From Streptomyces celluloflavus (GTDB lineage Bacteria > Actinomycetota > Actinomycetes > Streptomycetales > Streptomycetaceae), in NCBI GenBank assembly GCA_000720995.1, contig JOEL01000002.1:1-64000 (forward strand): a DNA stretch of 64,000 bases. The letters run 5' to 3'. Below, piece after piece: positions 62,712 through 64,000 of the stretch (its first letter is position 1; the number at the start of each line of letters is the position of its first letter). A program made the position numbers and the translations under genes. The notes below the pieces were generated by a model. That model saw nothing but the letters and a program-made list of their open reading frames with translations. It did no database searches and had not been told where the DNA came from.

Positions 62712-63036
62712 CGGGACCTCCGCGCGACGCGGCGGCACACCGTGGGGTTGTGGGGCATGAGGCGACTCTAAACGGCCCGCGCACGGCGCCCGCGTCCGGC
62801 CCCGCCGAGGCGTCCGCCGCCCCCGTCGGCCGTGGCGTTGACCACAGCGGGGCGGGCGGGCCACCCGCCCGCCCTACCGCGCCCGGCCACCCGGTCCGCG
62901 ACATCCGCGCAGGCCAGCGACCGGATCCGGCCGGACCGGCGGCGCGGACCGGGCCGCTGTCCAAGGGCCGGGCGGGCCTGTCCGTCATACGGACGGGCTT
63001 GTTCGGCGCTCACCCCCGTCTGGTTTACTTGCCGAC

Positions 63037-63123
63037 ATGACCACGACGAGCAGCCGCACCCTTGCGACCGAGGCGACCACGACGCCCGGTGCTCGTTGCA
63101 TGTGTCGAATGTGTGACCGCTGA
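63037..63123 (+). CDS. 28-residue Cys/Met-rich leader peptide upstream of metN
   Basis: A small reading frame ATG 63037 to TGA 63121-63123: MTTTSSRTLATEATTTPGAR followed by CMCRMCDR. Three Cys and two Met codons sit within six codons of each other just before the stop, far above chance in this genome. TTTACT (63024-63029) lies 7 bases before the ATG and there is no ribosome site, so it is probably leaderless. The layout resembles the Cys-rich leaderless leader peptides known from actinobacteria that stall ribosomes when cysteine is short; here the controlled operon would be methionine uptake. It is followed by 205 bases that can form alternative hairpins. Confidence 0.75.
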   Translation: MTTTSSRTLATEATTTPGARCMCRMCDR

Positions 63124-63328
63124 GGGCCCCCGCCTGAGCCTCGCGCCCCGAAGCGAGACCCATCGCCCCATGCCGTATGTCCGTCCGCCATGACAGACCC
63201 GGTAGCCCCGCGTCACCGGAACCCGAAGCCGGGCCCTTCGCCCTCCGGGTTCCCCCCTGCCGCACTCGCAAGAATGCCCCGTGCCCGGTGGGCGAGCCAC
63301 CGAGCACTCGACAGTGACGGAATTCCCT
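63124..63328 (+). promoter_or_regulatory. metN leader RNA with possible attenuator hairpins
   Basis: Untranslated stretch between leader peptide and metN. GGAACCCG (63218-63225) pairs with CGGGTTCC (63246-63253). CTCGC occurs at 63140 and 63265 and GCGAG at 63153 and 63292, so these can pair in mutually exclusive ways, as in an attenuator. No SAM-riboswitch core was recognised. Confidence 0.45.
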
Positions 63329-64000
63329 GTGATCACCACAACGGGCCTGACCAAGGTCTACCGCTCAGGAGACCGCGAAGTCACCGCCCTGGACGGCGTC
63401 GATCTGCACGTCCGCGAGGGCGAGGTGTACGGCGTCATCGGCCAGAGCGGCGCCGGTAAATCCACCCTCATCCGCTGCCTCAACCTCCTGGAGCGCCCCA
63501 CCTCCGGCACGGTCACCGTCGCCGGCCAGGACCTGACCGCGCTCGCCGGACGCGGGAAGCGCGCGAACGCCGGGCTCCGCGCCGCCCGCAGCCATATCGG
63601 CATGGTCTTCCAGCACTTCAACCTGCTGTCCTCGCGGACCGTCCAGGACAATGTCGAGCTGCCCCTGGAGATCCTCAAGGTCGACCGCCGCGAGCGCGCC
63701 CGCAAGGCCCGGGAACTGCTGGACCTGGTCGGCCTCGCCGACAAGGCCACGGCGTACCCCGCCCAGCTCTCCGGCGGCCAGAAGCAGCGGGTCGGCATCG
63801 CCCGCGCGCTGGCCGGCGACCCCAAGGTGCTCCTCTCCGACGAGGCCACCAGCGCCCTGGACCCGGAGACCACCCGCTCGATCCTCCAGCTGCTGCGCGA
63901 CCTCAACCGCCAGCTGGGCCTGACCGTCGTACTCATCACGCACGAGATGGACGTCGTCAAGACGATCTGCGACTCGGCCGCGCTGATGAAGGGCGGGCGC
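63329..64000 (+). CDS. metN: Methionine ABC transporter ATP-binding protein, 3' end outside window
   Basis: The first 224 residues of the ATPase of the D/L-methionine importer MetNIQ. Seen: Walker [17 protein letters not shown]-loop [13 protein letters not shown], signature [17 protein letters not shown], Walker [16 protein letters not shown] and H-loop [14 protein letters not shown]. The gene is cut at base 64000, before the C-terminal ACT-like domain that senses methionine. GTG 63329 fits the family start ([20 protein letters not shown]); GTG 63314 is in frame too. Downstream metI and metQ are expected outside the window. Confidence 0.93.

Follow-up and report, generated by a model that had tools for sequence, protein, structure and literature searches.

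A conserved Cys/Met-rich leader peptide gene ahead of metN in Streptomyces, probably a supply gauge for a methionine importer

Described leaders and the metN locus of Streptomyces celluloflavus

The closest described system is metL (SLIV_29928) of S. lividans TK24 (Front Microbiol 2021), a leader peptide gene encoding MSTTSDRTPATEATTTPGARCMCRRMCAF ahead of metNIQ. It was leaderless by RNA-seq and, in the available portions of the paper, was read as a methionine-dependent attenuator, with several methionines and threonines named and the termination step described as unclear (PMC8079986). Polycysteine leaderless short ORFs with cysteine-dependent attenuation were reported from M. smegmatis (Canestrari 2020, as summarized in parts of PMC9031893 and PMC13236596). 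Cys leaders were predicted before cys and cbs operons of mycobacteria and relatives in a study whose available text states that the regions upstream of methionine operons showed no conserved RNA structure (Seliverstov 2005, PMC1262725). Among the open-licence papers searched, none was found that describes a leader combining Met codons with Cys codons.

The window analyzed is a 64,000-nt stretch of S. celluloflavus DNA (contig JOEL01000002.1); features below are on its plus strand. The leader ORF (63037..63123) has 28 codons, from ATG at 63037 to TGA at 63121-63123, and its product, MTTTSSRTLATEATTTPGARCMCRMCDR*, was identified as a metL homologue from the translation and the genus alignment. 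After an interval of 205 nt, metN starts with GTG at 63329 and runs beyond the end of the window (63329..64000), being followed by a transport permease gene (PF00528). Its domains were ABC_tran (PF00005) and NIL (PF09383) in Pfam, and its best NCBIfam match was TIGR02314, at 385 bits, under the model cut-off of 499.7. The leader peptide matched no NCBIfam or Pfam family. Searches for paralogous leaders in the same genome returned weak matches alone (E ≥0.098 in one search, ≥5.2 in another), 4 of which were inspected and none found convincing.

Proposed sensing codons were TGC-ATG-TGT-CGA-ATG-TGT (63097..63114), specifying Cys21 Met22 Cys23 Arg24 Met25 Cys26 and chosen from codon counts over 118 loci. 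Across 119 leaders (sequences that are related and not independent), Cys made up 22.6% and Met 15.5% of the last 12 codons, against a baseline of 0.75% and 1.2% in the 17 long frames of the window. Codons of the pathway amino acids were thus enriched near the leader stop, as is characteristic of leaderless amino-acid attenuators.

The locus is like metL in having a homologous peptide before metNIQ, and the S. lividans peptide fits the genus consensus; a homologue was located directly before metN in 96 of 101 genomes. It is unlike the published account in scope and reading, since that account, in the text available, is a one-species annotation with a methionine-dependent interpretation (PMC8079986). 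The present analysis adds conservation across the genus and the presence of Cys, along with relatives in a few further families, the rare pair CGA-ATG, the RNA block after the stop and the C-rich spacer. The leader itself is therefore already on record in one species; what is new is its wide conservation and its double Cys/Met content.

The mycobacterial polycysteine frames are, in the parts of the sources available, similarly short and located upstream of sulfur genes, and they are leaderless with regulatory codons, as is proposed for the metN leader. They differ in having contiguous Cys codons before cysteine genes, whereas in the metN leader Cys, Met and Arg are intermixed ahead of a gene for methionine import, and the stop is followed by a conserved hairpin block. 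Consensus Cys residues are separated by Met and Arg, with CC in a few divergent leaders. The Cys leaders predicted in 2005 share short frames, Cys codons near the stop, no terminator and a suggested role of Rho, and are unlike the present one in genes and genera, as far as the available text extends (PMC1262725). Streptomyces-metK (RF03063) and Streptomyces-metH (RF03076) RNAs are also leaders of methionine-cycle genes and both occur in this genome (L110 and L111); in contrast to them, the metN leader scored below every Rfam gathering score. Kinship with these RNAs was considered and rejected, as no resemblance was seen by eye. In the available part of the S. lividans paper, RF03063 and RF03076 are given the other way round (PMC8079986).

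Conservation of the leader frame and of its codons

DNA search of 101 genomes of the same genus detected the leader locus in 96, the exceptions being G008, G022, G044, G050 (a match at a contig edge) and G079; one of the two copies in G002 was left out of the locus set. At one locus per genome, the leader ATG was at the homologous place in 96/96. The commonest form was MTTTSSRTLATEATxTPGARCMCRMCAF, with the C-terminal consensus RCMCRMC. For wider comparison, a 119-locus set was formed from these 96 and 23 divergent family members, the latter chosen as weak matches from 30 loci, with 7 excluded (L158 and L162, cut by contig ends, and L173-L177, weak matches without a leader). When 293 genomes of the order were searched with a covariance model, the leader was detected in 269, spread over the window's genus and three further genera of its family. 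A pattern scan of named species gave at least 80 records, all Streptomyces among the matches listed; these records and the S. lividans homologue are the basis for equating the genus with Streptomyces. When 11 same-genus genomes without the leader were tested for metN, 9 had no match at 1e-80; in one of the remaining two the match was partial, and in the other it was weaker and lay in a 671-aa frame.

The -10-like hexamer TTTACT (63024..63029) ends 7 nt before the leader ATG in the window, the spacing expected of a leaderless start, and lies 6 or 7 nt 5′ of the ATG in 114 of the 119 related loci; the mapped start site is known from S. lividans (available part of PMC8079986). Upstream of the start site is an operator-like palindrome, TGTCCGTCATACGGACG (62979..62995, strand not assigned), an exact match to a degenerate pattern. 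Of the 119 loci, 111 had GTCC-N6-8-GGAC at a distance of 25-110 nt upstream of the ATG; in a control stretch the count was 4 of 53. Because of this palindrome, a transcription regulator may act on the locus as well.

Several measures suggested that the leader frame is under coding selection, although the loci are related and the counts are not independent trials. In-frame spacing between anchors took nine values, all multiples of three (114/114 measurable among 119 loci), while spacing after the stop was spread over all residues modulo three (33/52/23; 108 loci). Five variable codons had a G+C of 0.30, 0.54 and 0.81 at their first, second and third positions (88 loci with 28 codons), and the stop was held in place through a switch from TGA to TAG-A. 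Within the last 12 codons, Cys and Met occurred together in 118/119 loci, with at least one Cys in 119/119 and at least two in 113/119, and the stop came 3-4 codons past the last Met in 118/118. These results confirmed the proposal in the earlier note of a Cys/Met-rich 28-codon frame ahead of metN, as judged from sequence comparison: it is real, conserved and apparently coding-selected. Long in-frame insertions before CGA-ATG, up to 10 codons over the usual 28, were observed in L107, L155, L157, L164 and L108; that of L164 repeats CGC-CGA-ATG-TGC.

Single codons drifted at the end of the frame. Directly before CGA, TGT was found 88 times, TGC 6 times and another codon 24 times (Cys in 94 of 118); two codons before CGA, ATG was found in 85/118 and a non-Met codon in 33/118; following CGA-ATG, Cys was found in 88/118 and Arg in 29/118. 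The pair CGA-ATG (63106..63111) was itself in frame near the leader end in 118 of 119 loci. CGA is rare, with 15 of 751 Arg codons in the 17 long ORFs of the window, as is TGT (8 of 67 Cys codons), and the retention of both rare codons means that the sequence matters beyond the amino acid. In most bacteria, CGA is decoded by an inosine tRNA (PMC3711424, available part). Given this nucleotide-level constraint on CGA and TGT, and on the GGGCCCC block and hairpin described below, some of the conservation concerns something other than the amino acids. It has one component at the codon level and one at the RNA level, and within the genus these are not fully separable.

RNA features down to metN and leaders in other families

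Minimum-energy folding and alignment predicted a three-way junction over most of the frame, with a fold z of -2.44 and 1 of 200 shuffles equally good. Its helix P1 would be formed by ACGACGAGC (63043..63051) and GCTCGTTGC (63091..63099, overlapping the first Cys codon), the small hairpin P2 by CGC...GCG (63055..63066), and the hairpin P3 by ACCGaGGCG...CGCCCGGT (63067..63090), whose loop holds the variable codons 14-15. In structure alignment R1 (49 of 96 loci), 93.7% of P1 cells were paired, with little variation, and P3 showed one double change (G-C to A-U). The covariation score of the named structure beat 500/500 column shuffles. A control slid by -3 scored higher (0.055 vs 0.042), most pairs hardly varied and the junction was not seen in f19, one of the other families; P1 was likewise not seen by eye in the f19 loci. 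The junction stands as a prediction.

Immediately 3′ of the stop is a GGGCCCC block (63124..63130), nearly invariant in the 38 sequences selected for alignment A2 from 116 loci matching an anchor pattern. It is followed by hairpin P4, CTCGC-GCCCCGAA-GCGAG (63140..63157), in which 97.3% of cells were paired and a double change from U-A to C-G was seen in 3 of 37 sequences. The anchor pattern of this block was matched by 113 of the 119 family loci; in the other 6, among them those of genera g4 and g5, the hairpin block was missing or altered. A candidate pseudoknot joining GGGC to the P4 loop by 4 pairs, 3 of which never vary while 100% of their cells are able to pair, was set aside, as nearly no variation gives no evidence either way. 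Further down is a variable C-rich spacer (63158..63303), a candidate Rho-loading stretch by C/G skew: C exceeded G in 85/85 measurable loci (metN was placed in 86 of 96), with a mean skew of 0.23, as compared with 0.02 upstream (55/96 above 0). The motif GCACTCGACAGTGACGGAA (63304..63322), which includes the metN ribosome site, is common in the genus and was not seen in the f19 loci inspected. No terminator-like site was present in 62900-63420, and a classical trp-type attenuator, which has an intrinsic terminator with a U-tract, is not claimed. Rfam searches yielded no family at gathering score, with one sub-threshold match per search (E 0.72 and 2.4).

Regions upstream of metN were also scored outside the window's family by taking the best short frame within 480 nt and asking whether Cys and Met together made up at least 4 of its last 14 residues. 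Such a frame was found in 18 of 79 loci (77 genomes), a proportion that is no frequency, as the regions were a non-random choice favouring f19 (108 genomes outside the genus had metN matches). The 18 comprised 15 of 35 loci in f19, 2 of 2 in f3 and 1 of 1 in f30, with 0 of 41 elsewhere; since the f19 loci are related, far fewer independent events than 15 are represented. With three loci of the window's own family included (82 of 83 regions, L371 being too short), the count was 20/82, as compared with 0/82 on the reverse strand and 9/1640 in block shuffles. Most metN genes examined are without such a leader, as far as a composition test can see, because 61 of the 79 other-family regions had fewer than four Cys plus Met, including 41/41 outside f3, f19 and f30.

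Several of these leaders are differently built and also hold Cys, e.g. CPCRCRMC and MMCGMPMCRMCSC. A -10-like hexamer was found 6-7 nt before the start in L299, L300 and L327 by pattern and in L334, L336 and L347 by eye. Of the 79 other-family loci, 15 contained CGAATG, as compared with 4 on the reverse strand and 8.0 in shuffles. When a stop in the same frame 3-7 codons later was also required, 10 loci remained, as compared with 0 on the reverse strand and 0.6 in shuffles; one of these 10 is probably a chance occurrence, as another stop in that frame lies just 5′ of it. Three f19 genomes have TGTCGAATGTG, the stop and the GGGCCCC block with hairpin in common with the genus, the first half of the frame being apparently unrelated by eye. 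Core model R2, built from these three and genus sequences, which therefore match by construction, was run on 394 genomes of the class. Its 42 matches below E 1e-10 came from 39 of the 40 genus genomes and from the three f19 genomes, each lying just upstream of the metN match of its own genome. The single genus member without an R2 match had no metN match either. Another 25 matches away from metN were weak (E 5.9e-4 to 0.045, under stricter filters) and were taken as chance.

In f19 loci and in one genome of the window's family (L321, L323, L334, L336, L340, L342, L345, L347, L348, L359 and L298), a second short frame was noticed by eye in the interval from leader to metN. Its end resembles LRRLSHLPFPPGTR or LLSHAPYPPGTC, the stop being preceded by a PG motif, often extended to PPG, and the two examples tested had no NCBIfam or Pfam match.

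Proposed mechanism and alternatives

The tiny Cys/Met-rich peptide gene is probably a supply gauge for the methionine importer, and we read the leader, with modest confidence, as a ribosome-mediated attenuator of metNIQ. The metNIQ mRNA would start at the A of the leader ATG, as published for the S. lividans homologue. A ribosome on the leader would slow or stop at Cys-Met-Cys-Arg(CGA)-Met-Cys when charged Cys-tRNA or Met-tRNA is short, and its presence on these codons, or its departure at the stop, would set the behaviour of the GGGCCCC block, the hairpin and the C-rich spacer. MetNIQ expression would then be higher under scarcity of sulfur amino acids. Our preferred read-out, a guess, is Rho-dependent early termination; the C-rich spacer fits Rho loading and proves nothing. 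Reading of CGA by an inosine tRNA, which probably applies in Streptomyces too, is probably slow, and the codon might, again as a guess, be a slow spot between Cys and Met. Besides the evidence on frame and codons, the attenuator reading draws on the leaderless annotation of metL, on the hexamers and Cys/Met-rich frames of other families, on the position of the strong R2 matches next to metN and on the finding that most genomes tested that have no leader also gave no metN match. Points against it are the missing terminator-like site, the lack of a direct sign of Rho, a modelled Shine-Dalgarno accessibility that did not follow ribosome position, the retained rare codons, the drift of single codons, the low Cys plus Met scores of most other-family metN regions and the hairpin block missing or altered in 6 of 119 loci.

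Across the relatives, loss of the codons with the surroundings kept was not the pattern found, since the frame and the joint presence of Cys and Met are kept and other-family leaders are Cys/Met-rich too. The suggestion in the earlier note that one peptide senses both amino acids stood in part. It agrees with the frame kept in 114/114, with Cys and Met together in 118/119 and with the leaders in 18 of 79 other-family loci, and it was weakened by the drift of single codons and by the part of the conservation that lies at the RNA level (CGA, TGT, GGGCCCC and the hairpin).

A sensor of methionine alone, as the authors on S. lividans named metL in the available text (PMC8079986), with the Cys codons as passengers of a conserved RNA, is unlikely, though every Cys position varies, often by one base to Arg, where CGA-ATG stays in frame, and the gene downstream belongs to a methionine importer and carries a NIL domain. 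Passenger codons do not agree with a Cys in the last 12 codons of every leader and a second one in nearly all, nor with the recurrence of Cys in the differently built leaders of other families. We hold it less probable still that the locus is a structured cis-acting RNA, riboswitch-like or protein-binding, with a secondary reading frame. Near-invariant nucleotides, rare codons included, the predicted junction with its fold z and covariation score, and the GGGCCCC-hairpin block shared with three f19 genomes point that way. They are countered by the preservation of frame in every measurable length variant, by the junction-bearing 5′ half that differs in f19 though the peptide end is alike, by the higher score of the slid control and by the absence of any Rfam family at gathering score.

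Little credence is given to translational attenuation in which the Cys/Met codon stretch (TGTCGAaTGYGCG) pairs with the metN ribosome site (CGYGCAcTCGACA). The consensus duplex had -21.0 kcal/mol, equalled in 17/2000 site shuffles and 118/2000 leader shuffles, and the mean z over 117 loci was -1.37, where two control segments gave -0.77 and -0.19. When the whole leader was folded, 0.19 of the site's pairing was with the codon stretch and 0.007 with mid-frame; placing a ribosome in the model on the first Cys or on the stop freed the site motif slightly (from 0.31 to 0.40), and the mycobacterial precedent is translational according to the available text of PMC13236596. This pairing is suggestive in the genus. 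It was dropped as the main reading because the site motif was not seen in f19, where TGTCGAATG is kept, and because accessibility of the metN Shine-Dalgarno sequence was independent of ribosome position in the model: openness was 0.48 with the ribosome at the first Cys, 0.46 at the stop and 0.45 with none (59 loci, every second eligible locus). One-sided changes in several loci, e.g. L011, L016, L017 and L021, also speak against it. Least probable, and very unlikely, is a peptide that acts by nascent-chain arrest, or else a small Cys-rich protein with a function of its own, e.g. metal binding. The conserved C-terminal RCMCRMC would suit such a product; the end nevertheless varies in sequence with its composition kept and tolerates extra codons, the frame closes at a near-constant distance after the last Met, and Pfam and NCBIfam gave no match.

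The attenuator reading extends, as a tentative proposal, to a class of leaderless leaders gauging both sulfur amino acids, with a slow CGA between Cys and Met codons. In three or four actinomycete families the class may recur ahead of metN, with codon content and the CGA-ATG-stop layout kept and much of the RNA around them replaced. If this is true, a single short peptide would integrate Cys and Met supply, i.e. act as a two-input attenuator, and sulfur amino-acid control in Streptomyces would be testable by simple codon swaps. The CGA-ATG pair and the GGGCCCC-hairpin block would offer a handle on the read-out of leaderless attenuators that have no terminator.
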